Shown here piece by piece: positions 1-61,403 of a DNA stretch of 64,000 nucleotides (positions are counted from its first letter, which is position 1; each line of letters starts with the position of its first letter). The notes beneath the pieces are model-generated. The model was not told the origin of the DNA. It made no database searches and was given only the letters and a program-made list of their open reading frames with translations. The position numbers and the translations under genes were made by a program. The stretch lies in contig CAKKNE010000001.1 of assembly GCA_918797485.1 (NCBI GenBank), forward strand, positions 3,038,001 to 3,102,000. Reading direction: 5' to 3'. Source of the DNA: Pelagomonas calceolata (lineage: Eukaryota > Sar > Pelagophyceae > Pelagomonadales > Pelagomonadaceae).

Positions 1-1
1 A

Positions 2-3000
2 GCCAAAAACTTAGAAGTAGAGACGGCCGTGGAAGATCTCATCTCGGAACTCGCGAGATACCCCCTATGTGACGACGATACCTTGGATACCGAAGCCATA
101 AATTTGTTAAGAGTCCATTACAACAAGATGCTCTACACGGCGCTCTTGAACTGCGTCAAGAACTCGCTCAATAAGATGAAGGCGAGAGTCTGTGTAAGAG
201 GTGGCGGCACGGGTTTTCTCTTCGTCCAGCGGCCGTTTTTTACGGTCGACGTCCAGCTCTCCGTGCCTTCGGTCAGGCTAGCGCCGTCGTTAGATGACGT
301 CCAGCGGGCCATCAATAGGTCTGCGGTCGCCGTGTTGGGGTGTGCGAAGCGCGTCTTCAACTGGGGGCAGCTCGGCCTGCCGGACGAGCGGAAGTCAGCT
401 TTTTTTGATCGTTTAGGTAGAGATACGGAGATCGTGAAGATCGCCCTCTTGTTGACGGGCGCTCTCCATGCGACAAAAAATCAAGTGCAAGATTGCCTAT
501 CAGCGTTCAAGCAGTACGACTGGTTGTGGAAAGATGATAGAGATAAGCACTACTCGCGTTTTACGGCTCGGAACCCGAAGCTCGAGGACTTCGATAAGCA
601 GTTGCAGTACTTCATGTCCGTCGAGGAAGCCATCACAAGGATCACGCCCATGACGAACATCGGCGCACTCACCTTGAACACGGCAAATTACAAGCTACAG
701 TTGCGGAACGAGTCGCGCCAGTGGAAACAAATATATTCTACTAAAATACATCATATGGCTAGAGATGCGTTACGCGGCTTGTTAGACTACATAAGAACAA
801 CATCAACAAAGCTCCACACGGAGGTCACGGATTTGGACACTTTGAGATATGTGATGACCGTGCTCAAAGACGTGAGGGAGAAGGAGTCGTCGATAGAGAT
901 GGAAATAGCACCCATCTTCGACATGTACGCCATGCTGGACCACTACCTGCCCGGTGGGCTCGTGGATCAGGACGAGATGGACCAAAAGAGTGTGCTGCGG
1001 CCGTCGTGGCACAAGCTCGCCGACTTAGCTGAAGATGTGGCCGACGAGCTCGGCAAGATCCAAGGGCATTATAAAAAGAAATTAGTTTTGGATGTGCGCG
1101 AGTTCAAGCAGGACTGTAGTGATTTTAGAAGTGATTTCGAGCGTAATGGCCCTGGGGCGCCCGGGTGCTCGCCCGAGGAGGCCGTGGAGCGGTTGAAGCG
1201 TTATAAAAATGAATTGGACGTGCGCGAACGGAAGATGGACATGTACATTGCGGGCGAGGAGCTCTTCGCGCTACGCACGTCGAAGTACCCGGAGATGGCG
1301 CGCACGCGGAAGGAGGTCGGTTTGTTGGACCAGCTCTACGGTTTGTACCTCGACGTCCTCCAGTCCGTCGAAGTCAACCAGTCGACGTTGTGGATTGATG
1401 TTCCGGGAAGATTACAGGAAATGACCGACGAGGCCAATCAATTTGACCTGCGATGCAAAAAAATGCCGAAACGGCTGCGCGAGTGGCGGGCCTACGAGGA
1501 TTTACGGGCGAAGCTCACGGACTTCCAGGACCTGCTACCTCTCATATCAGAGCTGGCCAAACCTTCGGTCAAACCTAGACACTGGAAGGAATTGTTTTCG
1601 CAGGGCGGTTTTACGCTCCCATATGACAAGGAGGCCTTCCAGCTCCAGGACATCTTCGAGTCGCCCATTCTTACATGGAGAGAGCAGGTCGAGGAGATCT
1701 GCGAGGGCGCCGACAAGCAGCTGGGCATCGAGACCAAACTCAATGAATCCCGAGAAACGTGGTCTCATACGACATTTACGTTCGGCCGGTGGAAGGGTCG
1801 GGACTGTCCCATCCTCCAGGCGTTTGGCCAGATCATCGATGATTTGGAAGAGGCCCAGATGAACATGCAGACCCTGCTGAGTATGCGCCACGTCGGGCCG
1901 TTTCGGGAGCCCGTGCAGGAGCAGCTCACGGCTCTCAGTGACACGGCGGACACGCTGGAGCTGTGGATCAAGGTCCAGCTGCTCTGGACGGCTTTGGAGA
2001 GCGTCTTCATGGGCATGTATCAGTGTCCAAACTTCGACACGACGTCCCTTCGACACAATCGACCGTATCCAGAGAGACCCCGAGTTGAACTTTGATTGAA
2101 CCACGCAGGCGGCGACATCGCGAAGCAGATGCCCCTCGAGGCCAAGAAGTTCCTCAAGGTCAGTGACTCAGCGTGATTTCCTTCAATTTCTCAACTTGAA
2201 GTTGCGTCGACGGCGTCATGTCGCCCTCATCATGATCATCGGAGCGTCGACGCGCCTCGCGAGTGCACATCGATGGGTTTCGCGACGCGGTCGTTCGACG
2301 CAGGTCGACCGCGACTTCGTGAAGCTCATGGCCAAGGCCGAGCAGACGCAGATCGTGTTGCAGTGCTGCGCGAACGAATTGCTGAAGAACACGCTGCCGG
2401 TCTTGTATGATGAGCTCGAGCGGTGCCAGAAGTCTCTCGAAGGGTATTTAGAACAAAAAAGGGCCATCTTCCCGCGGTTTTACTTCGTGTCGAATGCTGC
2501 CATACTCATAATTTTATCTCAAGGCTCCGACCCGTTGCAGATGCAGCCCTACTACGAGAAGGTGTTCGATTCGGTGAACCAAGTGGAACACGACAAGAGC
2601 GACAAGGGCAAGATTTTGGCCATAAAAAACATTTCGGGTTCCGACGAGGAACGGGTCAAGCTCGCGAAAGTCTGTCTTGCGAGTGGTAGCATCGAAGTGT
2701 GGTTAGGAAAACTAGTCATAGAGATGCAAAAGACGTTAAAAGCGTTGTGTGAAACCGCAGCAGCACAATGCGCGGAGATGTCGCTCGGCGACTTTGTGGA
2801 CGCGAACTGCGCGCAGTTCGCTTTGTTGGGCATCCAGTTCAACTGGACGGCGCAGTGTCAAGAAGCTCTTGAGAAATCGAAGCAGAACAAGGCTATCGTG
2901 CAAGACACGAACCGGCAACAGTTAGTCGTGCTGCAGGAGCTGTCGTCGTGGTGTCTCAATGACCTCAAAACCAAAATGAACCGCCGGAAGATCGAAACGT

Positions 3001-6000
3001 TGGTTACTATTCATGTGCACCAGCGCGACGTGTTTGAAGACTTAGCGAGGTTGCACCGCTCGAGGAAAGGAGGGTTAGATGCAGGGGATTTCGAGTGGCT
3101 CAAACAAGCGCGCTTCTACTGGCGCCCCGACGCCAAAGATGATCACGGTCCGTCCGCCTGTGTGGTCGCGGTCTGCGACGTCGAGTTTACTTATAGTTTC
3201 GAGTACCTAGGATGCAAGGAACGACTCGTGATCACGCCGTTGACCGATAGGTGCTATATTACATTATCACAAGCTTTAGGAATGCATCTGGGAGGTGCTC
3301 CCGCGGGCCCCGCCGGCACGGGCAAGACGGAGACGGTCAAGGATCTAGGGAGAGCGCTAGGTGTCTTCGTGGTCGTCACAAATTGTACGGACCAGCAAAG
3401 GTACACGGACATGGCCAAGATCTTCAAGGGTCTTTGTCAAGGTGGCTTGTGGGGGTGTTTCGACGAGTTCAACCGCATCGAGTTACCTGTCCTGTCGGTC
3501 GTGGCCCAGCAGGTCTTAGCTATAACGAACGCGAAACGAGTGGGCGCGAAATCGTTTTCGTTCCCGGGCGACCCCCAGGTCATCGGTCTCATCCAGAACG
3601 TCGGCTACTTCATCACGATGAACCCGGGCTATGCTGGCAGGCAGGAGCTGCCCGAGAACCTCAAAGTCTTATTTAGATCTGTATCGATGATGGTCCCGGA
3701 CCGCGAGTTATCAGTGTGGAAATCATCTCGGCACCGCGGCCCTCGGAGAGGCCCAAACTCGGCCACGACCTCCGACTGATAGTTGAGACCGTAGTGAGAG
3801 AGAAACACCTCACTCCGACCCCAACACACCTCAAATTGAAGCGCAACTTGAACTTTGATGTCCACGCAGGCGAGATCATCATGAAAGTTAAATTGTGTTC
3901 CGTCGGTTATAGTAAATTCCCGGAACTTGCCCGGAAGTTTAATGTTTTGTACCGATTGTGTGAACAGCAACTCTCGAAACAGAAACATTACGACTTTGGA
4001 TTAAGGAACATCCTCAGTGTTTTGAGGACGGCCGGTGCGACGAAACGGAAAGAATTGGAAGCTGACGAGGAGTTGCTCGTCATGCGTACTTTAAGGGATA
4101 TGAATTTATCAAAATTTGTGGCGCAAGACGTGCCTTTATTCTTATCTCTACTCGCGGACCTGTTCCCGCAAATCACCATTCCCCAGGGCGGGGGACACGA
4201 AAAAGTGCAGGAGACACTCACAAGTGTCATAGACAAGTACCGACTCATCGACCACGATAGTTGGCGGCTGAAGGTCATCCAACTCTACGAAACGACGTTG
4301 GTAAGGCACGGCATCATGCTCGTCGGGCCCCCTGGAGCAGGAAAATCCAATATAATAAACGTGTTGCAAGACGTATTGTCGAGAGTCCTAGGCATAGCCC
4401 ACAAGCGCGTCCGGATGAACCCGAAGGCCATAAGGGCGGAGGAGATGTTCGGCGAGACCGACCGGTACGATCTCGGCGTCCCACGTCGGTGCCTTCACTT
4501 CAATACGACTCGTGTCCATCTCACGATGCCGGGGGTGGTTTCTTTTTTGCTGAAGAGGCCGTTCGGACCGTATTCACGAGAGATGCTCCGCGCAGGTTGA
4601 GCGGCGAGTGGATCAGCGGCATCTTCGCGGCCATGTGGGGCAAGTTCAACGATCGGGCGCGGAAAGATAATACCTGGATTTTATGTGACGGTCCTGTTGA
4701 TGCCGTGTGGATCGAAAACTTGAATACGGTGCTCGATGACAACAAGATCCTCACATTAGCCAATGGTGATAGAATACCCATGACGGACAACGTCAAGCTC
4801 ATGTTCGAGGTTGAAGATTTAAGGAACGCCTCTCCTGCGACAGTATCTAGAGCAGGGATCATCTTCGTCAGTGCCTCAGATTTGGACTGGGAACCAATAC
4901 TAAAAGCCTGGCTGAATAAATGCGACCCCGTGCACCACCCGGACATGCTGCGGGAGCACTTCGAGAACTACCTGGGCCACTGTACATCCCTCAGGGATTG
5001 CGGCCTGGCCTTCGAGTGGCTCCGGGCGAACTGCAACGTGCCCATTTCCGTCAGTAGGGTGGGCATGGTCGAGAAGACGCTGACCTTGATGGACGCATTA
5101 TTATCATGTATGGAGATCAGTGAGTCGATCGACGACGCGCATCACGAGCTCGAGCGGTGCGTGCTCTTCAGTCTGACCTGGGGCGTTGCTGGCTTACTTG
5201 AGAGTGATGATCGATTGAAGTGGGACGCCTGGCTGCGGGAGATGGACTCGGAACCGACGAACATGCCTCTCCACGTCGCACAAGGCGAGTCCATCTTCGA
5301 GTACGGCATCGACCATGAAACGATGGAGTGGGAGCGGTGGAGTACGCCGGTCTACAAACCTCCCCGTGGGGATGTGGAGGACTGGTCCGGTGTTTTGGTG
5401 CCCACGCTGGAAACAACTAGATGTGGCTACATCTTAAGTCAACTACGTAGTAGAGAAACACCAGTACTGCTCCTAGGCGGGTCCGGCACGGCGAAAACCA
5501 GTACGGCCTACATGTTCTTCGACTCCTTAGAAACGGAAAAGAACATCATTAAAAAGATGAACTTTTCCTTTGCTACCACTCCTGGCTCCTTCCAAGGTAG
5601 CATCGAGGCCGAGCTCGACAAGCAGGGCGGCAAGAGTTATGGACCACCAACGGGTAAAAGGATGACCATCTTCTTAGATGATTTATCCATGCCTGAAGTT
5701 AATACGTGGGGCGACCAGCCGACTCTCGAATTAGCTCGTCAATTGGTCGAGACGGGTGGAGTTTGCTTCCTGGACAAGGACAAGAGGGGAGATGTCAAAG
5801 AAGTAAGGGGCGTGGATTATGTTGGAGCGATGGACCTGCCGGGAGGGGGCAAGAATGACATCCCCAACAGACTGAAAAGGCATTTTTTCATGCTGACGGT
5901 CGTGACGCCTTCTCCCTCGTCGGTAGCCGCTATCTATGGTATATTGTTGCAATCCAGATTCGACGCGAAAGAATTTAAATATTTAGGGGGGGAGTTCCCG

Positions 6001-9000
6001 GGCTTCGTGGCGAGGATGCCCCCGACGACGATGGCTTTATTTAAATGGTTAAGGGAGAAGATGCTGCCCTCACCGACGAAATTCCACTACACGTTCACGC
6101 TGAAGGATCTTAGTCGTTTATTCCAGGGTATCCTGCGGACGCCGAAGTCGACGTACACGCAGGATTCTGTGTTGGTGCAGTTGTGGAGACATGAAGCGGA
6201 AAGAGTGTTCAGTGATAAGTTGGTCAATTTACAGGACAAGGACAAGTTCAAGAAGGAGCTTGATCTCGTTTCCAAACAGTTGACCGGGGCCGCACCTGCC
6301 AAAGGGAAAAAGGACCGGCCGCCGTCGGCGCTGAAGTCTCCTACCAAAAGAGGTAAATCCGTCTCACGGCCTGGTTCAGCGCCAGCCGCCGATATTCATT
6401 CGCGCTGCGTCGCTCCCGCACTGTTTGTGGACTTTCTTAGAGATGACGAGTACGACGAGGACGGCATCCTGGCGCGATCTCGGCGTTTTGATTAGTAAAG
6501 GTGCCTTCACTTCCTTGGACGTGTCCATCTCACGATGCCGGGGGTGGTTTCTTTTTTGCTGAAGAGGCCAATTCGTGATGCTCCGCGCAGGTCGCCGAGG
6601 CGCCGAAGATTTACGAGGTCGGCGGCGACATCGACTCGTTACGTACTCGATCGAAGCATTTCCTCAACCTCTACAACGAGGAACATCCAGCAAGACAGAT
6701 GAATTTAGTTATTTTCGACGACGCGCTGTTGCATCTAGTTAGAATCTCGAGAGTGCTGGGCATGCCTCGAGGTAACATGATGCTCGTCGGCGTCGGCGGC
6801 TCCGGCAAGCAGTCCCTCACCCACTTAGCCTCGTACATGGCCGGCTCCGTGCCCTTCCAGATCGTGCTCACGAAACAATATAACCTCGCGACGTTCCTCG
6901 ATGATCTTAGAATGATGTACAAGACCGCAGGACAGCAACGAAAAAAAGCTACGTTCATCTTCACGGACTCGCAGATCAAGGATGAGAACTTCTTAGAGTT
7001 ACTCAACAGTCTACTCATGACGGGCGAGATCCCCGGCCTCTTCCCGAAGGACGAGCTCCAGATCATGGCGTCGGACATCCAGCAATATGCGCCCAAATCA
7101 GTACCGGTGGACACGCCGGAAAGTCTCGTGAAGTTCTTCTTCGACACGGTCCGTAGGAATTTACACGTCGTCCTTTGTTTTTCGCCGGTCAATGCGAAGT
7201 TCGCCGATCGCGCGCAGAAGTTTCCTGGGCTCATCACGGGGTGTGCGATCGACTGGTTCCTGGGCTGGCCCAAGGAAGCGTTAAGAGCTGTTAGCGAAGG
7301 TTTTGTCGGAGACATGCCCATCATGTGCTCTGATACCGTGAAAAGTAACTTGATCGAGCACATGGCCTTCGTCCATAACTGCGTGGTGGAGTGCTGCGGC
7401 GAGTACTTCCAGAAGATGCGGCGGCACGTCTACCAGACGCCTACCTCCTATTTGGCCTTTTTACAATTTTATAAACGAGTCTACGCGACGAAGTTACAAG
7501 AAGTAGAAAGGAAGGCGTCGAACGTGCGCGTTGGTTTGGAGAAGCTCGCGAAGGGCGCCGAGGACGTCGAGAGCATGAAGGTCGTGCTCGCGGACGAAGA
7601 AGTCAAGCTCCAAAAAGCGAATGAAGATACCACAAAGATGCTCGGTAAACTACAAAAAAGCAGCATGGCCGCCAAGAAAGAAGCTGATATTGTCAATGAC
7701 ATAAAAAAGGGCTGCGAGGAGGAAGCCCACAAGATCGCGCTCGAGAAGGCCGACGCGGAGAAGGATCTCGCGAAGGCGATGCCTTTTGTGGAAGAAGCGG
7801 AAAGAGCTGCCAATTCGATCAAGCCCAACGACCTGAACGAGGTCAAGAAGCTCGGGAAACCTTCCGACATCATCAAGCTCGTGTTCGACCTGGTCGGTTT
7901 ACTGAAAATGGAAAAGATGGTCAAGACGGAGACCGCGGAAATTACGATGGGTGCGGCCGCGGCGCCGCAGCTCGCCTTCCCTTCATTGGCATGAGTCGCC
8001 TTCGAGAGAGGAGGTCGCGGGTGGTTTCTTTTTTGCTGAAGAGGCCGTTCGGATCGCGAGACCCGCGCGCAGGCATCGGGAAAGAAAAGCGGACCTTCGG
8101 CTTCATCAAGGATAGTTTTAAAAATATGCAGGGCGGCATGCTCGCCGACTCGTCATTTCTCAAAAATATTTTCTACTTCAGTAAATACGAAAAGGACATG
8201 ATCAACGACGAGACGATCGAGTTCATGCGCGCGCGCGGCGTCCCGTGGTTCAAAGTAGGTTTCACGCCATCGACGCGCTTCGTGTCCATCAGACGAGGTC
8301 GTGGGTAGTTTTTTTTCGATTTTTGAGGCAGTTCGAGTGACCGCGATGCCCCGCGCAGGCAACCCTATTTAGATATTGAGGAGTACAACACGCTCGTGGC
8401 GAAGAACGCGTCGAAAGCTGCCGAAGGCCTGTGTGCGTGGACCAAGGCCATGTGTAGCTACCAGGCGGCCTCGAAGATCGTCAAGCCGAAGCTCGAGGCC
8501 CTCAAGCTCGCCGAGGCGAAGCTCGCCGAAGCGCAAAAAGAACTCGACAAGGCCGAGGCCAAGCTCCAGGGCGTCATGGATGTTTTGAATAAGCTCCAGA
8601 AGCAGTTCGAGGACCAGATGGCCGTCAAGGCGGAGATCGAGGCCGGTGCGTTTGCGGCGTCCGACGCCGGGGGTCGTTTCTTACCGCGATACGCGCAGGC
8701 GCCAAAAAGACGCGCGACAAGATGCAGCAGGCGACCGATCTCATCGGCGGGCTGGCCGGCGAGCGGAAGCGCTGGACCGAGGACAGCGCCAAGTTCGACG
8801 CGACGAAGACGGCGCTCGTCGGCGACGTCGCCGTCGGTGCGATCTCGGCGTCCCGTTGTTTAGAGACGCCTTCACGCCATCGACGCGACTCGTGTCCATC
8901 AGACGATGCCGGGGGTGGTTTCTTTTTTGCTGAAGAGGCCATTCGGACCGAACCGCGATGCTCCGCGCAGGCTGCGCGTTCGTGTCGTACTGCGGGCCCT

Positions 9001-12000
9001 TCAACCAGGAATTTAGGGATTACATCGTGGAGAAGAAGTTGACGGCTGACCTTCGCAAGAAAGATGTCCCTTGTTCTCCGTCCCTAGATGTCATTAGTCT
9101 GTTAGTTGACGTTTCCGAGACTTCCGATTGGGCTTTGGCAGGACTACCAGGGGATCCTCTCAGTATCCAGAACGGCATCGTGGTGACACGATCCTCGAGA
9201 TATCCACTGCTGATCGACCCCCAGGGCCAAGCGATCAAGTGGATCCGGCAGCACGAGGCGGAGCGCTTACCTAACTTTGGTGTTACTGCACTAAATAATC
9301 CAAGAATAAAGGATCAATTGGAGTTCGCCATGGCCGAGGGCAAGGCGTTGATCGTGGCGGGCGTCGAGGAGGAGCTCGACCCCATGCTTGACCCAGTGCT
9401 CAACAAGCAGTGGATCCAGAAGGGGAAAAGCAAGTACATCAACCTCATGGACAAGCTCTGCGAGTTCCAGGAGACCTTTGCCTTGTATTTGATTACTCGC
9501 TTACCGAATCCGCATTTTAGTCCAGAGGACCAGGCCAAATGCGTCGTCGTCGACTTCACTGTTACCAGGAAGGGCTTGGAGGAGCAGCTTTTGGGGAGAG
9601 TGATTCAGAAGGAACAGCGGTCCTTGGAGGAGCAGCTGTCGTCGGTCCTGAACGACGTGGCGACGAACACGAAGGCACTTTTAAGGTTAGATGAGCTATT
9701 ACTGGAAAGGCTGTCGGCGAACACGGGTAACCTACTAGATGACGAAGAACTCATTGCGGTGCTGGCCGAAACCAAAACGAAAGCCGTCGAAGTGAATGAG
9801 AAGTTGCTGGCCGCGGGGACGACGCGGGCGTCGATCGACGAGAAGCGCGAGCAGTACCGGCCGGCCGCGACGCGCGGTTCCGTGCTCTATTTTGCGATCG
9901 TGGACATGTCCCAGGTCAACGTCATGTACCAGACCAGCCTAGATCAGTTCCAGGGGCTGTTTGACTCGAGCATGGACCTCGCGGAAAGAGCGTCGCTCGC
10001 GTCGAAACGCGTGGCCAATGTTATTGATACGATGACGTACATCGTCTACCGCTACATTTCTCGTGGCTTATATGAGAAAGATCGACTGAGTTTCAAGCTT
10101 TTAGTGCTGTTCAACATTTTGGTGACTGCTGGCAGATTAACACCATCGGAGGTCACGCTGTTCCTGAAGGGCGGCGCGGCCCTGGATATCAACGCCGTGA
10201 AACCGAAGCCCGTGCCCTGGCTCACGGACACGGCCTGGCTCAATATTGTGCAACTGTCCTCGGATCAAGGGGCAATCGTCTTCCGCTCGTTGCAGGACGA
10301 CGTGCTAAGGGACGACGCGAAGTGGAAGGCCTGGTATAATGATAATGAGCCGGAACGACAGCCCATACCGGGCAACTACCAACCTAGATTCGAGGCCGAT
10401 CCGAACGGCGATTTCTACAGGATGCTCCTCGTCCGGTCACTCCGAGAAGACCGGACCATCCTATGTGTGGACGACTTCATCACGCGCCTCGAAGCCATCG
10501 ACGTCGCCGGGACGAAACTCCCCTGCATGGGCGGGAAGTTCACGCAACCCGTCACCGAAACGATCGAGATGACGTACGCAGACATGTCGACGACGATACC
10601 CATCGTGTATCTGTTGAGTGCGGGCGCGGACCCCACGGATACCGTCGAGACCTACGCTCGCAAAAAGAAGAAGCACATTACCTGTGTCAGCATGGGGGAA
10701 GGCCAGGAGCCCGTCGCGCTGCGAGCGATCAACAGTGCGACGGTCGAGGGCATGTGGGTCATGCTCCAGAACTGCCACCTCGGGCTGCCCTTCATGGAGG
10801 GCCTCGAGGAGCTTTTGGGCAAGATTAGAGTCAATGAAGCCACGTTACCTGATTTCCGATTATTTATTACCACGGAACCGAATCCCAAGTTTCCCATCGG
10901 GTTGTTACAATTAGCTGTTAAGGTTACTTGTCAGCCTCCTAGCGGTTTACGGGCGGGTCTCATGCGTTCGTATACTGTTATAGTGGACCAAGACCGGTTA
11001 GAGCGAGTGGAGACGGCGCAGTGGCGGGTCCTGGTCTATGCCCTATGTTTCCAGCATTCCGTCGTGCAGGAGCGTCGCAAGTACGGCGCCATGGGCTGGT
11101 GCGTGCCGTATGAATACAACGATGGAGACATCAACGCTTGTTTACTCTTCTTGGAACGACATTTGTACCAAGGGGCGTTGAGCTGGCCAACTTTACAATA
11201 CATGGTCGCCGAGGTGCAATACGGCGGCAAGATCACGGACGATCTTGACAGGAGACTATTCCGAACGTATGCGAACCAGTGGCTCACAAGTGCGACGACG
11301 AAACCCGGCTTCGCGTTCCGGCCGTCCGAGACCTTGCAAAAAATCGAAAACGACTTTGGGTATGGCTGCCCGCCCGGCGACACGCACGACGACTACGCCG
11401 CGTTTGCGAAAACATTGCCTTCTGTCGATTCGCCGGAGGTCTTCGGGCTCCATCCGAACGCCGACCTCGCGTTCCGCAACAAGGAGGTGCGGAACTTATT
11501 AGCTACTATTTTGGAAACGCAGCCGAAAGGAGGCGGTTCGAGTGGAGGTGGCCCGACGCGAGAAGACGTGGTCTACGCGAAGTGCGAGGAGATTTTGTCG
11601 GGCATACCCGAGGACTACGTCGAGGAAGTTTATGCGAAGGCCCTGGATATGAGTCAACCGCTGGACGTGTTCCTGAACCAAGAAATTCAGAGGTTGCAGC
11701 TCGTGATTGGGTCGGTGCGACAAAAATCAAATACCATCTTGGGAGCTATTAGGGGCGAAGTCGTAATCACGCAACAGATCATCGACGGGATCAATGCGAT
11801 CTTCGACGCGAAGGTGCCCCACGACTGGGTCTTTTCTCCCGCGGGAGATGAGGTGTCGTGGCAAGCTCCCACTATCGGGTTTTGGGCGTCCGGCCTCGGG
11901 GCGAGAGATGACCAATTACGCAAATGGATCGCCGGCAAAGGAAGACCGAAGTCCTACTGGTTCCCGGGCTGGTCGAACGCGGCGGGTTTCCTGACGGCGG

Positions 12001-12419
12001 TCCAGCAGGAGGTGACTAGACGGCATCGCAATGAGGGCTGGGCGTTGGACGGCGTTCGCGTCGATAGCGAAGTCACGGAGTACGACCGCGCGGAGCAAGT
12101 CCGTGCGCCTCCCCCAGAAGGAGTTTATATCAGTGGACTATCGTTGGATGGGGCCATCTGGGACAAGTCGGGAGCTTGTGTCGCCGAGGCGAAGCCGAAG
12201 ATTTTGTTCTGCGAGATGCCCGTCCTCTTCGTCACGGCCGTGACGAAGACGGCGAAGAAGTCGAGCGACTTGGGCCCCTTCGGCGGTTTTAGTTGTCCGG
12301 TCTACAAGTACGTCCGGCGGACGGACAAGTACATCATCTTCATGGTCAACCTGCCGTCCCAACAGAAGCCGGACCACTGGATCCTGCGGGGCGTCGCGCT
12401 GCTGTGCTTTACGTCCTAA
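2..12419 (+). CDS. Axonemal outer-arm dynein heavy chain (DNAH5/DNAH8-like), 3' ten exons, 5' partial
   Basis: ATP-driven motor of the flagellar outer arm. The visible coding part is exons 2-2012, 2109-2158, 2304-3702, 3870-4464, 4596-6471, 6591-7950, 8073-8226, 8359-8645, 8699-8836 and 8971-12419. They sum to exactly 3773 codons including the stop. The frame is open at base 2, so roughly the first 800 or more residues lie upstream. In order: linker; AAA1 Walker A GPAGTGKT (3306-3329), followed by GCFDEFNRIELPVLSV; AAA2 GPPGAGKS (4325-4348); AAA3 GGSGTAKT (5476-5499); AAA4 GVGGSGKQ (6789-6812); coiled-coil stalk with the microtubule-binding tip (about 7490-8830); AAA5/6; and the C-terminal domain ending GVALLCFTS. 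The AAA1-AAA2 wording (VPDREIIMKVKL, HYDFGLRNILSVLRT) is closest to the DNAH5/8 (Chlamydomonas gamma) class as I remember it. A basic Ser/Pro-rich insert sits between AAA3 and AAA4. Introns 6-9 interrupt the stalk; the last exon is 3.4 kb without introns. Confidence 0.95.
2013..2108 (+). mobile_element. Dynein intron 1 (96 bp, GC-AG), introner family 2
   Basis: Splicing restores the dynein reading MGGDIAKQMP. The donor is GCATGT and the acceptor CCACGCAG. It shares TATCAGTGT near its 5' end and TTGAACTTTGAT near its 3' end with intron 3, so both look like copies of one element. The outer blocks are loosely inverted repeats of each other (ATCA..GT..CAA on opposite strands). Confidence 0.75.
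2159..2303 (+). other. Dynein intron 2 (145 bp, GT-AG)
   Basis: Donor GTCAGTG, acceptor TTCGACGCAG. Splicing joins KKFLK to VDRDFVK. The first three bases, GTC, are repeated at the start of the next exon. It contains a CAACTTGAAG block loosely like family 2, but I cannot assign it firmly. Confidence 0.85.
3703..3869 (+). mobile_element. Dynein intron 3 (167 bp, GC-AG), introner family 2 with visible target duplication
   Basis: Splicing restores VPDREIIMKV, a conserved dynein stretch. GCGAG occurs both at the first five bases of the intron and at the first five bases of the next exon, as expected for a target-site duplication. The GC donor therefore comes from the target copy and the AG acceptor from the element. 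The TATCAGTGT and TTGAACTTTGAT blocks match intron 1. Confidence 0.75.
4465..4595 (+). mobile_element. Dynein intron 4 (131 bp, GT-AG), introner family 1
   Basis: Splicing gives EMFGETDRLSGEWISGIF. It starts GTACGATCTCGGCGTCCC and ends ATGCTCCGCGCAG. The 40-base core at 4521-4560 is identical to that of intron 5 (6530-6569) and differs at two bases from intron 9 (8901-8940). Confidence 0.9.
6472..6590 (+). mobile_element. Dynein intron 5 (119 bp, GC-AG), introner family 1
   Basis: Splicing joins DEDGIL to VAEAPKIYEV. It starts GCGCGATCTCGGCGTT and ends GATGCTCCGCGCAG. It carries the identical 40-base family core at 6530-6569. The donor is GC. Confidence 0.88.
7951..8072 (+). mobile_element. 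Dynein intron 6 (122 bp, GT-AG), diverged introner family 1
   Basis: Splicing joins EITMG to IGKEKRTFGF in the stalk. The 5' third (GTGCGGCCGCGGCG) has diverged, but 8021-8046 matches the family core without a mismatch, including the T-run. It ends CGCGCAG. Confidence 0.85.
8227..8358 (+). mobile_element. Dynein intron 7 (132 bp, GC-AG), introner family 1
   Basis: Splicing joins TIEFM to QPYLDIEEYN. It starts GCGCGCGCGCGGCGTCCC, aligned base for base with the first 18 bases of intron 9. It shares the CACGCCATCGACGCG and GTGTCCATCAGACGA blocks with intron 9 and ends CCCCGCGCAG. Its core has several substitutions, so it is probably an older copy. Confidence 0.82.
8646..8698 (+). mobile_element. 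Dynein intron 8 (53 bp, GT-AG), internally deleted introner family 1
   Basis: Splicing joins VKAEIEAG to AKKTRDKMQQ. It starts GTGCGTTTGCGGCGTCC, keeps GACGCCGGGGGTCGTTTCTT from the core, then jumps to GCGATACGCGCAG. It looks like a full element that lost about 80 bp but kept both splice sites. Its length is not a multiple of three, so it must be removed. Confidence 0.8.
8837..8970 (+). mobile_element. Dynein intron 9 (134 bp, GT-AG), introner family 1, fullest copy
   Basis: Splicing gives VGDVAVGCAFVSYCGPF. It starts GTGCGATCTCGGCGTCCC, has the CACGCCATCGACGCGAC block and the core at 8901-8940, and ends GATGCTCCGCGCAG. The exon resumes at GCTGCG, similar to the intron start GTGCG, possibly a decayed target duplication. 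Confidence 0.9.
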
Positions 12420-12524
12420 GAAATTACGGAATAGTATCTCTAGTTTTATGGGGAGGCATGATCCTTACTTGCCGGGGGACGCGCCGCGGACTTGTGCGCG
12501 CGCGCGATGTTCACGGATTCTCGT

Positions 12525-24300: not shown

Positions 24301-25102
24301 TTGGTCCGGGAAATCCCCGGCGCCCTTGTTGAGCATGTTGAGCTCGCCGGCCTGCGTGGACTCTCGTGTGACCGCGACGACGGCGCCGCGGCGCCGTGGG
24401 ACGCCATCGACGCGACCCCGGCAACTTATAGTACGATTCAGACGCCGCGTCACGCACCTCGCGCGCGAACTCGAACGCGTCGCCCCAGCGCTTGTCGAAG
24501 AGCGCCCTAGCGGCTCGCGCCGCCTCTTCATCTCTCCTTCTTTTCCCGACGGCGTGCTTCTCCTTGATGATGTCGATGAACACCTGTCGCTTCGCCTTTT
24601 CCTCGGCCCTATTTTTTTGATATTCCGCATTGGCCGCGGCCAAAGCCTTCATGGCGGCCTCGTCCCGAAACGCGATGGGCAGGCCGTGCCTATCCGGAAC
24701 GTGGGGCGCGCACCACGTCACTTGGCTTGGATCGTCGCGTTTCGAGTAAAAAAAGGTCCCGTCCGGGGTCACGTGCTTCTTGTAGGGGTGCCGCTGCAGC
24801 AACTTCATCCGTCTCCCCTTCCGCCAGTTCTTCTGGATGCGTAGAATGGCATCTAGCTCTTGTTCATTACCAGAGACCCAATCCCAGACCATGAGTCGTA
24901 CGGCTTCTTCTTTGTGGACGAACCGCACAGAACCGGCCGTGTCGATGGACCTTCGTCGACTGTGTTTGGACGAGCCCCGGCTCTCCATGGAGGCCCGCGA
25001 CCGTCGTCTACTGTGAGCCTCATCCTGGCTGCCTCTACTGGCTCGGCTGGCGCGGCTCGGCACGCTGCCGCGGCTGACCGGCGGGAGACCGGTGGTCTGC
25101 AT
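21322..25102 (-). CDS. IQ / WW / leucine-rich-repeat coiled-coil protein
   Basis: Two exons (25102-24458 and 24351-21322) give 1224 residues. Order: Ser/Arg-rich N-terminus; an IQ motif (ILRIQKNWRKGRR, about 86-98) likely to bind calmodulin; a WW-like segment (about 106-136) lacking the first Trp; then, from exon 2, roughly ten LRRs (LTQLTLASNRLTELPDSICD, LSALNLLRNQLTELPDRLGD and so on); a Cys-rich patch (CMFKRCRC, KVCVPPKPGWMC); a long charged coiled coil; a second, complete WW (WSDEPYWVHRETGVTVWDEP); and an acidic Ser/Glu/Asp tail. It is probably a cytoskeletal or flagellar scaffold, judged by the IQ/LRR/coiled-coil mix. I know no named orthologue. Confidence 0.8.
24352..24457 (-). other. 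Intron of the IQ/WW/LRR gene (106 bp, GT-AG), possible introner
   Basis: Donor GTGCGTGA, acceptor GTCCACGCAG, phase 0; splicing joins FEFARE to AGELNMLNKG. It shares GTCTGAATCGT and GTCGATGGCG-CC with the intron of the flavoenzyme gene (51229-51304). Its TCGCGTCGATGGCGT block is the reverse complement of a block in dynein introns 7 and 9. Confidence 0.85.
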
Positions 25103-35080: not shown

Positions 35081-38000
35081 TTACAGCGTGGTCGTGTCCG
35101 GCGGCGGCCCGGGCGGCGGCGGGCCCGGGGGCGGCGGCGGCGGCGGCATGGGCGCGCCGGCCGGCCGCGTGGGGACGAGCTCGACGCGCCGCGCGCGCGG
35201 CTTCACGAAGACGTCGGGCTCGTCCGTGGGCTGCGTCGCGAGGTCCGATGACCCGGAGTCCATCTCCTGGAGCCGCCGCAGCGCGGACCGCGCCGCGTCC
35301 CGCTCGTCGGCCGCGGCCGGCGGCGTCGTGTCCGCCGGGGGGAAGAAGGCGCCGTCTTGCGGGGAGGGCGTCTCGTCGGCCGGCGCCTCCTTCGCGTCCT
35401 CGCCGCCCACGAAGAAGTCCGCCTCGCCCCGGTACGCCATGGACAGCCGCGCGGACACGCGCCGCCGCTCCTCCCTCGAGGCCTCGTAGGGCTGCTGCGC
35501 GTCCGGGACCCGCAGCGTCATGCGTCTTCCAGCCAACGACGCGCGCCGCACGGCGCGCACCTCCTCCTCCTTCTCCCTCGCGCGCCGGCCGCAGCATTTC
35601 CGTTTGATGGGCTCGTCCTCGACGTCTTCGTCGCCTCTTAGCATCGCCGCGAGCTCCGCGTCCGCGTCCAAATCGCCCCGATCCCGCAACGCCGGCTGCG
35701 TGTACAGCGCGGCATCAAATCTTTGAGAGACCTCGCTCTGGACGGAATGGTCCCTAAATCTCGATTCATCCAGAGGCAGTTCCCGAGACGGCTTCTCGTA
35801 GGCCTCGCGCGCGAACCGCCCGAAGGCCACGACGATCAGTGGGATGGGCGCGACCATCACGGCGTAGCCCCACAATTTCACGGACGCGAGCCAGAACAAC
35901 ACTACGATGTTGGACACCGTCAGCCCGAACAGCACCCGGTCGACCATGCGATAGTAGAACAGCCCACCGGACTCATACACCGGCATGTGCACGTACAGTA
36001 TCAAATAGCGAAACGCGCACTGCACGAGCACGAAATAGATCAACGCTAAAAAAGAAAGGACCGGCGCGAAGACCCAGAACGTGCAAAAGATCGTGAACGT
36101 CATCATCACCTGCGTGGCAATCCAAGGTCAAGTCGTGTCAGAGTCGCGGCGCCGAGATAGCGAGACTCACCTTCGGGAAGGCCCAGCCGTACAGCATGCC
36201 TGGTAGTTCGGGCGGCTGGACCGTGTAGAACTTGAATCCACGAGAAACGAGGGGCCAGGTCCTCAATAACCATAGTGGTGAGGCCCCACACTGAAACGCT
36301 AACAACTTCGCAAAATAAAAGGACACGCGGGGCGTGCCCTGCCCGACCATCTGGACGAACGCTAGTGGCGACTGCCAGGCCTGCTGTAGATGCTCAAGTA
36401 TGGCCGTGATGAATATGGCCACGTAGACATTCACGAACTGAAATCGGAAAAAACGCTCCACCACTGACAGGTCGACTTCCGAATGCGACTTGAGCCGCTC
36501 GTAGAAGCGCGCGATCGTCTGGAAGATCAACGGTAGTAAATTCAAAATAGACAACAAGAGCAGGATAGGAATTATGGAAGCGAACGCCCGCGCCGTCGCG
36601 CTCTCGGGGTCAAACCCGAACAACTTATCCGCTAGGATTGCGGAAGACGAGCAGAACGTGACAACAGTAGCCCAGAAGATCGTCAAGGCCCCCAGTCCCA
36701 GCTCGATGACCCACTTTCGTCTCGTAACCGCTTCAGTCGGTAAAAAAACGTTCTCCCATATAACATCTCGAGGTTCGGGCGCATCTCGAGCCGTCATCGC
36801 AAACGGTTGGGCGGCCAGCAAGGAATGGATCGCTTCGAGCTTCGCCGTCGGTTTCGTGAAGGTGACGAAGGCGGTACTGCTAGGTCGAAACCCCTCCATC
36901 TGCACACTCGCTTCGTCGATATGTGGACTACAAGGCAATGCGATCCTTAAAAAGGTAATCAATAATGAGTACAACCCATCTTTCAGGGCGTCGAAAGTTG
37001 ACATGTAGGGATAGTCTTTTATATACTCTTTCGACCTTCGACACAGGTCTTTTATTGAGCTTCTGAAGGGTAGCGACGCGATCGTGACGAGCCAATGACC
37101 GGTCGCCGTGCCCCTCCCGACAATTCGTTTCCAGCCCTTCTCTCGTCTTTTTTTGAGGCGTTTGTTCGCCTCTTCTCTGGCGTCTCTCCGACGCATCGCG
37201 TCGCGATCAGATCCCGGCGAATCATGGACCGTAACACTGGTTTCGGACCAGCCCCGCCCGTCCCGCGTCAAAATACAGCTAGGTAATCTCCCTCGCGTCT
37301 GGACCTGCTCCTCATCATCATCTGACGACAACTCGTCGTCCACCCTCCAAAAGCAGCCCCGCCAGGTCTTCCACTTCTTCTCCACTGTTTGAGGAGCAGA
37401 AGGCCTCAACCACCACTCGCGCCGAGGTTCCTGCATGACTTTATTCATTTTCGCGAAGTGTTCTCGGCGGATCGCTAAATCCAGATCCTTGACCAGTCGA
37501 TCGTAGTACGGTACGCTATCCACGTAGTAGTCGTCCGGCAGCACACCACGCAAGCATGAGCAGGAAGGACCGACGTCGCAACATCCTATAGTTAGATGTT
37601 GTACGACTGGCACTCGCGCGTCGCGCCTCTTCCTACAAAACCATCGTCTCTGGGGTCTCGGACTCAGGTCGCCCAATGTTGTACTGGTAGCTTCGGAGTC
37701 CGTCTCCTCGATGGCGTAGGATAGGCGTCTTGTCGCCTCCCGCGAGACGTCTTCTATCGCTTTACCTCGCTCCGTGCTATCTTGGCGCGCCCCGACACTA
37801 CGTCTACGAGCCGCTTCCGAGGGCGACTCCTCGTCGTCAAAGTCCAATCGTTGTACAGGCTCTTGCAATGTCTCCAAATCTTGAAACCAAATCGCGTTCC
37901 GCACGCGCCGCCACGGACTTCTAGGTCTAGGAGGCAAGCGTGACAAGGCGTCTCCCCCATGCCGCTTGACGAGCTTCTTCTCCGCGTCTCTCGCGAGCTT

Positions 38001-50890: not shown

Positions 50891-52238
50891 TTACCATTGC
50901 TCCCCGACCCTCTCGTCGCCCCTGGCCCGGCCCCGTTTCGGCGCGCGCCGCATGAACCGCCGCGGCGAGAACGGGTCGAGCGAGGGGATAGCCTTGACGC
51001 GGCCGTCCGCTAGGAGCTCGCTGATCAGCAGCCCCGTCACAGGCGCCCAAAGGATGCCCCAGCAGTTGTGGCCGTAGGCGCAGACGACGTTCGCCGTGCC
51101 GGGGACGAGCCCGAGCACGGGCATCGCGTCCGGCGCGCACGGGCGCATGCAGGCCTGCTCGATTTTTGGAGTCTGCCCGCGCGCGAAGGGCGCCATGCCC
51201 TGGAAAGAAGCCACGGCGGCGGCGACACCTGTGTGGAGGACGCGTCGAGCGTCGTCGCGGCGACGGCAGGGCGCCATCGACACGATTCAGACACGGCTAC
51301 CGACGGTCCGGGTTCGCCTTCATCAGCGACGCGTCCTGGAGGTCCCCACCTTCGCGCAGCCGCGCTCCTCGCACGTGGTCCGAGCCGCCGATGCCGCACA
51401 GGTACACGCTCCCGTCGACGCGCGGGTACACCTCCAAATGACAACTGTTCGAGTCCTCGGCGCAGAAGAGAGCGCAGGGTTCTGCGGCGACCTCCGGCGA
51501 GCCCTCGAAGACAATCGACGACGAGTATACGCCCTCCAGCGGCACGGAGAGCCCTGTCTCGGCGCCGATCCAGTCCTCGAGTAGTACACTCCATGCGCCC
51601 ATGGCGCACACAACCGCGTCGCAAGGGACCGTTGTGCCGTCCACGTTTACACCGGTACAGGCGTCGCCGTCCATCTCGAGGCCGCTCGCGCGCCCCTCCA
51701 CCAATTTGGCGCCGCTCGCCGCAAACAGGGCCTCGCAGAGCTCCTTTGGCACGACCTGGGCCGTGTCCGGGTCCATGAGCTTGGCGCCCGTGTCCTCCTT
51801 GTCGAGCCACGCCGGCGCGTCGGGCGAGAACGGCGCCTTCGCGGGCTTGTCGGCCGGCGGCCAGCCCCGCAGGCCGAGCTCGCCCGTCACAGATAACGTC
51901 TTGATCTTGCGGTAGGTCTTGAGGTTGAGCGTCTTCGCCAGCTCGGCGTGGAGGTCGAACGACACCTCGTGCAAAGGCCTCGTCGGCCCGGAGCCCCAGC
52001 CGCGGGCGAGGAAGCCACCACCTTTGCCGCTCGCTGCCGCCGCTACAGAAGTTCGCTCCACAATCGTCACGTCCTGGAAGCCGCGCTGCTTGAGGTAGTA
52101 GGCCGACGCGCAGCCCTGCAAGCCGCCGCCCAGGATGACCACCTTGCCTGAGGGCTGCAGCGGCAGGCCGCGCGCTGCCATTGAAAGCGCCGCCGTTTTC
52201 ACGAGCAGGGCCGCCGCAGCGACTGCGACGCGCATCAA
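50891..52238 (-). CDS. FAD-dependent amine/D-amino-acid oxidase family protein
   Basis: Two exons (52238-51305 and 51228-50891), 423 residues. A short hydrophobic leader (MRVAVAAAALLVKTAALSMA) is followed by the dinucleotide-binding motif VVILGGGLQGCASAYYLKQR (GxGxxG) and ERTSVAAAASGKGGGFLARG, characteristic of the DAO/TAM family. The C-terminal exon has PVLGLVPGTANVVCAYGHNC followed by WGILWAPVTGLLISELL, the second FAD-contact segment (G..N..YGHNCWGI). Most like the FOXRED1-type or plant and algal DAO-like oxidoreductases; substrate unknown. The leader suggests organelle or secretory targeting. Confidence 0.8.
51229..51304 (-). other. Intron of the DAO-family gene (76 bp, GT-AG), possible introner
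   Basis: Donor GTCGGTAG, acceptor CCTCCACACAG; splicing joins MKANPD to RVAAAVASFQG. It shares GTCTGAATCGT and GTCGATGGCG-CC with the intron of the IQ/WW/LRR gene. The downstream exon starts GTGTCG, partly repeating the intron start. Confidence 0.85.
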
Positions 52239-58610: not shown

Positions 58611-58882
58611 GAAATCCATGTGAGTCTCTCTGAAGCGCGGCGATGGCGTGCTTGCGAGATACGCGCGCGTAGCGTGCTAGCGTGCGGGTTGCAATCAAAT
58701 GGCGCCGCCTGGGGCAGCATAGGGCTCGCTACACCACCCTCAGGTGCAGCCTCGCAGCACCTCGTCACGGCTGCCCCACAGGAGAGCCAGCACACTCATT
58801 TGGAAGTGGAACATAATAGGCGCCACCGACGCCATCGACGCGAACATTAGGCGCCACGGACGCCGTCGACGCAAAATAAGAA

Positions 58883-60232
58883 ATGGCACACTTCCAGGAG
58901 AAGCTTTTTGACGCCTACGACGCGGCCGAGGAGGACTACGAGACCCACCTCGCCACGTATGTCGAAGAGCTGTCCGCCAAGCGTTTTGATACCGCATTGG
59001 AAAGTTGTGACGGGATGCTCGAGGCGTCGCCGAAGGACGCCGAGGCCGCTCTCTGCAGAGCATTGGTCCACGCGTTGCGAGGTGATGACGACGAGGAGGA
59101 CGATGACTACTGCACGCTCTGGCTGAAGCGGTGCGACCGGTGGCGCGTCGACGGCGAGGACTGCATGGGCGTGCCGTGGGGCGAACGAGCACAGAGGGAC
59201 TTCCCGCCGGCCAAGCTTAAACAAAGGCCAGCCTGGCAGAAGGCGATTTTGGACCTCGACAGACCTGCTGCTTGTGATGATGCCCAGGCCGCAAGGCGCT
59301 TCCTGGCAAGATGCGCAAGACGGCGCGACGCGGCGCCGGAGCCTCCACAAATGCCTGTGGTGGAGATCACGGAGTCGACGGCCGCCCAGACCGTCCTGGA
59401 TCACGTCGTCGACCACGGCGAGCTCCCCGAAGAAATGGAAGATGATCGACCGCTCGTGACGGTGAGCCAGGGTTTAGATGAAGAGACCTTCCAGACGTTG
59501 AAAGCGGCGTTGGTGAACCACCCTCGCTTACAAAACGCGGATAGCGAAGCCCTGGGCGCGTCGTTTGCGGGCTCGTCGGGCTTCGTCGTGCGCTTCGACG
59601 GCTGGGGCGGCGTCGACGCGACGGCGAAGAAGCTCTGGGTGCGCTCGGAGACGCGGCCGCTCGTGCCCTTCTTCCGGCGGTGCGCTGATAAAGAGTGCAC
59701 GGGCTTCGTGCTGAACGTGCTCGTCGTCGCGCCGGCCGAGGACGAGGAGGAGGTTGTTGTAGATGAAAACGCGCCCGAGGCCGTCAAGCTTTTATTGAGA
59801 AAGAAGGCGGAGGAATCAATAGATGAGCAGTACGCCGTGGGCTGGCACCGCGACGCGACGCTGGGCCTCAAGCCCGGCGCGGACGCGGCGCCGCCGCTCG
59901 CGCACCGCGTCTCCGTGCTGTACGTGGCGGTGCCGGAGGCGACGGGCGGCGAGCTGTGTCTGCGGAATGCGGATCGGCCGCCCTGGCGGTCCGAGCGCGG
60001 CGTGATCGACCGCGAGGTCGCGCCGAAGCAGAACCGACTCGCGGTATTCAGGGGCGACGCGGAGCACGCCGTACGACGGGTCACGAACGTGACCAAGGCG
60101 GACGCCAGCTTTCCCAAGGGCCACCGCGTGTCCCTCGTGCTCGAGCAGTATCGGGTGCCGCCCGGTCTGCGGGAATTCACGATGCATTTTGAGATCGTCG
60201 AGGGGAAGGACTACGAACGAGTAAGTGACTAA
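58883..60232 (+). CDS. 2-oxoglutarate-Fe(II) oxygenase with a TPR-like N-terminus
   Basis: 449 residues. N-terminus has a short TPR-like helical pair (TALESCDGMLEASPKDAEAA, LCRALVHALRG). The C-terminal half is a prolyl-4-hydroxylase-type 2OG oxygenase: His322 and Asp324 (GWHRDATLGL), distal His395 (GDAEHAVRRVTNV) and Arg415 (GHRVSLVLEQYRV), with VLYVAVPEATGGELCLRNAD between. All metal and co-substrate ligands are present, so it should be active; substrate unknown. It is a different architecture from the LRR/2OG gene at 18867. Confidence 0.75.
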   Translation: MAHFQEKLFDAYDAAEEDYETHLATYVEELSAKRFDTALESCDGMLEASPKDAEAALCRALVHALRGDDDEEDDDYCTLWLKRCDRWRVDGEDCMGVPWGERAQRDFPPAKLKQRPAWQKAILDLDRPAACDDAQAARRFLARCARRRDAAPEPPQMPVVEITESTAAQTVLDHVVDHGELPEEMEDDRPLVTVSQGLDEETFQTLKAALVNHPRLQNADSEALGASFAGSSGFVVRFDGWGGVDATAKKLWVRSETRPLVPFFRRCADKECTGFVLNVLVVAPAEDEEEVVVDENAPEAVKLLLRKKAEESIDEQYAVGWHRDATLGLKPGADAAPPLAHRVSVLYVAVPEATGGELCLRNADRPPWRSERGVIDREVAPKQNRLAVFRGDAEHAVRRVTNVTKADASFPKGHRVSLVLEQYRVPPGLREFTMHFEIVEGKDYERVSD

Positions 60233-60532
60233 GTTTACAAATCAGTGATACGCACGCTCATGCTTTGTTGCAAATGATTGAGCGCGAGCGAGCGAGCGAG
60301 AGGGAGAGCTAAACGAGCGGATAGCTAAAGAACAACGGTGTAGTAGAGAACGAGGAGGACTGTGGACGCACACTGACCTCCTCCTCAGGGTCCTGGGGAG
60401 CTAGACCTGCTCGTGCATACATTAATTTTAAGCTCCAGCGCAGCTCCAGAAAACAAACAGGACTTCTCGTGTGAGGGTGGTTTCTGGAGAAACCGGGTAA
60501 AGTGAGTGGTGCGCGAACGACCGAGAAGAGAT
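60233..60532. other. 3' flanks of the 2OG gene and histone H2A
   Basis: About 300 bp with no gene. It holds a GAGC/GAGCGAGC-rich short repeat (60280-60300) and, at its right end, the H2A 3' stem-loop. Confidence 0.6.
60479..60494 (-). promoter_or_regulatory. Histone mRNA 3' stem-loop of H2A
   Basis: On the minus strand: GGTTTC-TCCA-GAAACC followed by ACCC, the SLBP-type histone stem-loop (six-bp stem, four-base loop), about 40 bases after the H2A stop. The element CGAGAAGTCC follows and is shared exactly with the H2B side, so it may be the histone downstream element read by U7 snRNA. Confidence 0.8.
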
Positions 60533-60957: not shown

Positions 60958-61221
60958 GTGAGCGCGAAGGTCGAGCGAGCGACAGACACGGGCATCTCGT
61001 CCAAGGGCATGGTCGTCATGTGCAACTTCATCCAGGACCTCTTCGAGCGCATCGGCAACGAGGCCGCGAACGTCTGCCGCTTCTCCAAGAAGCAGACGCT
61101 CAGCTCGCGCGAGGTCCAGACGGCCGTCCGCCTCATCCTCCCCGGCGAGCTCGCCAAGCACGCCGTCTCCGAGGGCACCAAGGCCGTGACCAAGTTCGAG
61201 GCCGCCACGAACAAGAAGTAA
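60958..61221 (+). pseudogene. Histone H2B, 5'-truncated
   Basis: The frame from 60958 matches H2B from the [20 protein letters not shown] block to the end ([37 protein letters not shown]). The first roughly 50 residues of H2B (basic tail and first helix with YxxYIYKVLKQVHP) are missing. There is no ATG at the start of homology, and an in-frame stop lies at 60937. Only the 3' half of the histone fold remains. No upstream exon is visible, because the divergent H2A gene begins 38 bp away. Either a deletion removed the promoter and 5' end or the assembly is collapsed here. Confidence 0.8.
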
Positions 61222-61274
61222 ACGTCCGCCGCACCCCGCGGCGCTGGCGCTTCTGGCTCACCCATTTCACACCC

Positions 61275-61290
61275 GGTTTTTTCAAAAACC
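61275..61290 (+). promoter_or_regulatory. Histone mRNA 3' stem-loop of H2B
   Basis: GGTTTT-TTCA-AAAACC followed by ACCC, matching the SLBP consensus, about 55 bases after the H2B stop. CGAGAAGTCC follows as in H2A. Retention of the stem-loop and element indicates that the H2B locus was recently a normal replication-dependent histone gene. Confidence 0.8.
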
Positions 61291-61403
61291 ACCCTCACGC
61301 GAGAAGTCCCGTTTTTGTTCTGAGGCTCTGTTTCCAAATCTGGTTCCTTTCGCAGCGATGACGTCTAGACTAGATTAAGAGGTTACAAGTGACTGAAGCC
61401 TCC

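Follow-up and report, generated by a model that had tools for sequence, protein, structure and literature searches.

Six introns of a dynein gene in the window, the 64,000-nucleotide stretch of Pelagomonas calceolata contig CAKKNE010000001.1 analysed here, were found to carry related sequence. Judged from this likeness, introns 4, 5, 6, 7 and 9 of the gene, and probably intron 8, are very likely copies of one introner, hereafter family 1. A profile search of both strands detected no further family 1 copy in the window, and all copies were located within the dynein gene. The origin of new spliceosomal introns is an old open question. The element fits a self-spreading kind of intron already known from aquatic microbes, with the difference that all copies seen in the window occur in a single gene.

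The gene lies on the plus strand at positions 1 to 12420 and is partial, its 5' part being located beyond the window. It was assigned as an outer-arm axonemal dynein heavy chain gene from its frame and from Protein Data Bank matches. Removal of nine modelled introns gave an open frame of 3772 residues, and when four stretches spanning the nine junctions were searched against the Protein Data Bank, the top matches were outer-arm dynein heavy chains. Eight of the nine junctions fell within matched stretches and were ungapped at the junction in the alignments to solved dyneins, as these were shown. The junction of intron 6 showed weak conservation and alignment gaps nearby, and the ends of this intron were based on the frame and the family alignment. 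For intron 7, a start at 8227 kept the frame open and a start at 8229 broke it. Introns 4 to 9 would be spliced as modelled, and this gene model returned the positions that a preliminary description of the DNA had given for them. The window had a G+C content of approximately 61% (mean over 32 rows) and was taken as eukaryotic nuclear DNA. Besides the dynein gene, termed alga-like, it carries an alpha-tubulin gene and a histone pair, judged from translations without a family search.

Four of the long copies, supported by the gene model and the profile, were located on the plus strand at 4465-4595 (intron 4, 131 nt, GT-AG, phase 2), 6472-6590 (intron 5, 119 nt, GC-AG, phase 0), 8227-8358 (intron 7, 132 nt, GC-AG, phase 2, with a diverged core) and 8837-8970 (intron 9, 134 nt, GT-AG, phase 1). 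The fifth, intron 6, was placed on the same strand at 7951-8072 (122 nt, GT-AG, phase 1), with the profile in agreement, and pairwise shuffles pointed to intron 8 (8646-8698, plus strand, 53 nt, GT-AG, phase 1) as a probable short member. The common 3' end CGCGCAG, pointed out in the preliminary description, was present in all six introns. The common start proposed there held in part: introns 4 to 9 began with GTACG, GCGCG, GTGCG, GCGCG, GTGCG and GTGCG, respectively, that is, with GY-R-CG or a near form, but the complete RCGATCTCGGCGTCCC was limited to introns 4 and 9. RCGATCT followed GY in introns 4, 5 and 9. The reported repeats in the core (4521-4560 identical to 6530-6569, and 38/40 with 8901-8940) proved correct, and the identity between introns 4 and 5 extended to 50 bases (4511-4560 and 6520-6569). 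Within this region, a 28-nt core at 4533-4560 of the plus strand, with a predicted hairpin, recurred identically at 6542-6569, 8019-8046 and 8913-8940. When up to 3 mismatches were allowed, these four occurrences, all exact, were the only ones in the window, compared with 0 in 100 shuffles. An explanation of the core by RNA folding was considered and set aside; the hairpin was predicted, yet the introns were no more stable than shuffled sequences (folding z of 0.47, -1.43, 0.20, -0.62, -1.19 and -0.79 for introns 4 to 9). A curated RNA family was likewise dismissed, the window giving no Rfam match at the gathering score.

The profile built from all six introns detected the five long copies with E values of 1e-26 to 5e-36 (89-119 bits), when compared to a top score of 6.7 bits in ten shuffled windows. 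In leave-one-out searches, introns 4, 5, 6, 7 and 9 were recovered at E values of 5e-25, 5e-19, 3e-14, 1e-18 and 1e-31, respectively, and their membership of one family is secure at the level of sequence. Chance likeness of the five was ruled out by the 28-mer shuffles, the profile and the pairwise tests. Intron 8 scored only E 0.011 in the six-intron profile despite being part of the model, and with a leave-one-out E of 1.2 it lacks support of its own when the whole window is searched. In pairwise comparison, its similarity was reached by 0, 0 and 1 of 5000 shuffles for introns 4, 5 and 9, and by 404 and 1483 of 5000 for introns 6 and 7, and it is a probable sixth member. The proposal that six introns derive from one element was thus borne out securely for five of them. 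Identities in the multiple alignment of family 1 ranged from 0.64 to 0.85. Of the long copies, intron 9 was the closest relative of introns 4, 6 and 7, while for intron 5 it was roughly tied with intron 4, a position that would be expected of the source copy or of the least decayed one.

The exon sequences around the introns were unrelated in register. From -20 to +20, 166 of 600 positions agreed over the 15 intron pairs (5 to 16 of 40 per pair), whereas inside the introns the opening 18 columns of the alignment gave 191/260 and the closing 13 gave 146/165. Together with the three phases, this agreed with the earlier view that the copies occupy different sites. As the flanks are unrelated while the intron ends are alike, segmental duplication within the gene was rejected, and this explanation, taken together with assembly error or chance, was regarded as very improbable. 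It could draw on two flank pairs out of 15 (5/9 and 6/8), whose alignments were reached by 1 of 300 shuffles, but these were out of register with the junctions. Moreover, in the stretches that were searched the protein was collinear with dyneins of known structure, and the copies differ from one another. Another explanation supposes that the intron sites are old and that their sequences were made alike by gene conversion within the gene. Indeed, identity was uneven in three of the six pairs tested, out of 15: core against outside, it was 50/50 against 41/61 with 28 gapped columns for introns 4/5 (P 1.5e-6), 48/50 against 59/76 for 4/9 (P 0.0047), and 48/50 against 49/69 for 5/9 (P 5.5e-4). In the 28-base stretch, introns 4, 5, 6 and 9 were identical, although intron 6 is otherwise diverged; intron 7 matched at 18/28 and intron 8 aligned over 15/28. 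With the same 50-base core, pairs 4/6 (P 0.23), 6/9 (P 0.21) and 7/9 (P 0.83) showed an even spread of mismatches. Unrelated old introns would also have needed conversion right up to the splice sites, both ends being alike too, and conversion after insertion would also explain the patches. We considered gene conversion between old introns improbable; the patchiness itself could come from exchange between copies or from a constraint on the hairpin. Since mismatches were uneven in half of the tested pairs, overall identity gives no time order of the copies, and the series, in which full copies stand beside diverged and deleted ones and which had been read as the life cycle of an introner, describes states and not a demonstrated course of events.

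If family 1 is an introner, a route through RNA is slightly favoured over other ways of copying, and an introner copied via RNA is the best explanation overall, one to which we would give even weight for and against. In this mechanism, the intron would have multiplied as a unit, from one splice site to the other, and entered new positions in dynein exons, at sites presumably once empty. The excised intron would reverse-splice before GY in exon sequence. It would enter either its own transcript, with reverse transcription and recombination with the gene to follow, or the DNA itself while the gene is transcribed, and the copies would afterwards diverge, swap patches and shorten. In a variant described in PMC8469720, the lariat enters single-stranded DNA at R-loops, and entry of this kind would presumably be biased towards the gene from which the intron came. 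The RNA route was favoured because family 1 is confined to one gene in the window, because in the multiple alignment the introns are alike as far as their splice sites and the exon flanks are unrelated in register, because no duplication beyond a possible GY was seen and no significant inverted repeat was found, because the bases after GY belong to the copied unit and not to the target, and because of the clustering in one gene together with published precedents. For the clustering, 27 gene intervals were drawn manually on the basis of open frames, with some small genes omitted. The dynein gene held 411 of the 2461 sense GGY sites, so that the other five copies would all fall in it by chance with a P of 1.3e-4. 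The order along the gene, introns 1-3 and then 4-9 without mixing, is one arrangement in 84. These clustering figures are only suggestive, as the finding was chosen for looking striking. All six family introns were in sense orientation, and the frame was kept after their removal. A whole-intron unit, inserted in sense only and leaving the mRNA unchanged, would fit an RNA-type introner; the pattern is not specific, and a DNA element under selection could look alike.

The alternative is a non-autonomous DNA transposon moved by a transposase, which we regarded as a serious but somewhat less probable explanation. Signs of DNA movement were reported for 59.2% of 130 introner families in the survey PMC9860276, and the next exon began with GY in all 12 modelled introns of the window (P 5.7e-5 for Y given G, noticed post hoc and with dynein exons only as background; the starts of intron 3 and of the intron at 51229-51304 were set by homology or frame). 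GCGAG flanks intron 3 on both sides, intron 3 being outside family 1, and some copies could pair over approximately five bases at their ends. On the other hand, family 1 showed no duplication beyond the possible GY, with only 4 of 36 cells agreeing between intron start and next exon at positions 3-8 (over all 12 introns 16/72, for which permutation gave a mean of 14.8 and a P of 0.40), and the common bases directly after GY mismatch the target. No significant inverted repeat was detected within 40 bases of the ends in any of the six (lowest, intron 7, 30 of 300 shuffles), nor any terminal inverted repeat of at least 6 bases, the length from which the survey calls them; duplications are called there only in families of at least 15 genic copies, against six copies here. 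Nor was any copy detected outside dynein on either strand of the window. A longer target duplication with an inverted repeat after it, considered as a general plan, would suit intron 3 at best and was rejected for family 1.

Several points weigh against copying via RNA. The survey's rule on alignment ends, by which the similarity of every pair should come close to both splice sites without passing far into the exons, was kept by only 4 of 15 pairs (+1/-1 aligner, 20 exon bases added); the remaining 11, including all five pairs of intron 8, extended into exon or ended early, and most of the failing pairs ran into exons or halted at the variable part. The column counts were given greater weight than this permissive pairwise aligner, whose result nevertheless opposes a clean pass. 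A two-base duplication of GY is possible, GY opening every following exon, and six copies are too few to settle target duplication. In the predicted folds, the ends of introns 5, 8 and 9 paired over approximately five bases, as did those of intron 7 from the fifth base on; short end repeats of this size belong to the "ambiguous" class by the survey's standard. The dynein gene also holds three of the six introns outside the family, and at a share of one half the clustering has a P of 0.016, so that the gene may merely tolerate introns. Finally, the survey authors regard DNA as the form in which the majority of introners move. Reverse splicing, with the spliced intron copied near its own gene, was narrowly preferred to a DNA transposon.

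A more specific possibility, which we put forward tentatively, is a cis-multiplying introner, in which the excised intron would re-enter mainly its own gene or transcript, one gene filling with copies and the others receiving none. If true, such cis families would escape survey filters that discard like introns in like proteins, and local multiplication would perhaps be commoner than thought. In its working definition of an introner, the survey (PMC9860276) sets a minimum of four similar introns per genome, and family 1 has five secure copies and a probable sixth. It also asks for copies in genes with dissimilar proteins, and within the window family 1 lacks these. That filter is aimed at paralogues, and failing it is no argument against movement. 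Introners are said in the same text to favour lowly expressed genes. A literature search in a collection lacking most subscription journals found no report of at least five introner copies confined to one gene.

Comparison with known systems showed both likeness and difference. The introners of the survey resemble family 1 in comprising several similar introns in sense orientation at new-looking sites, in length (119-134 nt for the long copies here, within the 30-654 range of family medians) and in GC 5' splice sites (2/6 here, 0-50% there). They differ in that the copies seen here are all in one gene; as we understand the survey, introns that resembled each other in proteins that also did so were filtered out, and a single-gene family would be dropped or left uncounted. 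The Micromonas introner elements (PMC3879977), compared by description only, share the sense orientation and conserved sequence, and reverse splicing was favoured for them; they are genome-wide, in contrast to the one gene seen here. In Oikopleura dioica, as cited in PMC3879977, near-identical introns in the same gene were ascribed to reverse splicing, but these were pairs, compared with five or six copies here, in an animal with many non-canonical introns. The pelagophyte introners (PMC9481584 and PMC9860276, compared by description only), to which the preliminary description had also pointed, come from algal genomes that are rich in GC and poor in introns per gene. The introns of Pelagomonas peak near 210 bp according to PMC9481584, unlike family 1, and the Aureococcus sp. 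example in PMC9860276 has an 8-bp target duplication and a transcript longer by 12 bp, neither of which was seen in family 1.

Searches outside the window used viral and prokaryotic collections, which give weak negatives. The core patterns had no match in viral_contigs or genome_contigs. A 20-mer match in one viral contig (L001, 37.5% GC) gave only a weak 10-bit profile match at the 20-mer and was taken as chance. Intron 4, the only copy tried, had no match in phages. No dynein relative was found in viral_contigs with exon 10 as the query, and with exon 5, none of the 104 pattern-matching stretches in genome_contigs was a relative. No tubulin was found in viral_contigs.

The comparison of introns covered 12 in the window, the nine of dynein and one from each of three other genes; unmodelled genes may hold more. 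The best 30 of the 66 pairs were listed, 17 of these beat 200/200 shuffles, and 12 of the 66 were re-tested with 5000 shuffles. A second group, defined by pairwise shuffles, comprised dynein introns 1 (2013-2108, plus strand, GC-AG, joined through its final 24-28 bases) and 3 (3703-3869, plus strand, GC-AG) and an intron of another gene at 36110-36170 on the minus strand, with the last 22-28 bases in common (5, 0 and 0 of 5000 shuffles). By the same test, a third group was formed by two minus-strand introns of two further genes, at 24352-24457 and at 51229-51304, the latter with its start chosen for frame (0 of 5000). Weaker, tentative links crossed the groups, between introns 1 and 4 (19 of 5000), intron 5 and 36110-36170 (46), and intron 6 and 24352-24457 (59). 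In total, 11 of the 12 introns, including intron 8, resembled another, the exception being intron 2. Within the window, the second and third groups span two genes each and family 1 is limited to dynein; the five or six copies gathered in dynein, beside two small groups spanning two genes each, offer a sharp test of transposase-driven against splicing-driven copying.

Four of the 12 modelled introns (dynein 1, 3, 5 and 7) began with GC instead of GT, a high share. GCGAG opened both intron 3 and the exon following it, a direct repeat longer than that at any other of the 12 introns, and this sequence may represent a target-site duplication in another intron group. Sixteen bases of the intron at 24352-24457 recurred on the opposite strand in dynein intron 9 (8874-8889) and at 58828-58843, and another 16 bases, at 58859-58874, matched intron 2 (within 2159-2303) on the other strand. 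Both 58828-58843 and 58859-58874 precede a gene at 58884, and the recurring stretches are possibly a shared mobile fragment, as far as the sequence suggests.

ARAGORN called a minus-strand tRNA-Ser at 59827-59906 that overlaps an open coding frame enclosing it, and the call is probably false. The H2B-like frame at 60961-61224 seems to be without its N-terminal part and start codon, unless an exon lies elsewhere. A 57-base inverted repeat, 84% complementary and giving no Rfam match, was located at 60442-60498 and 61271-61327, each arm lying 3' of one gene of the divergent histone H2A/H2B-like pair, with a small hairpin.

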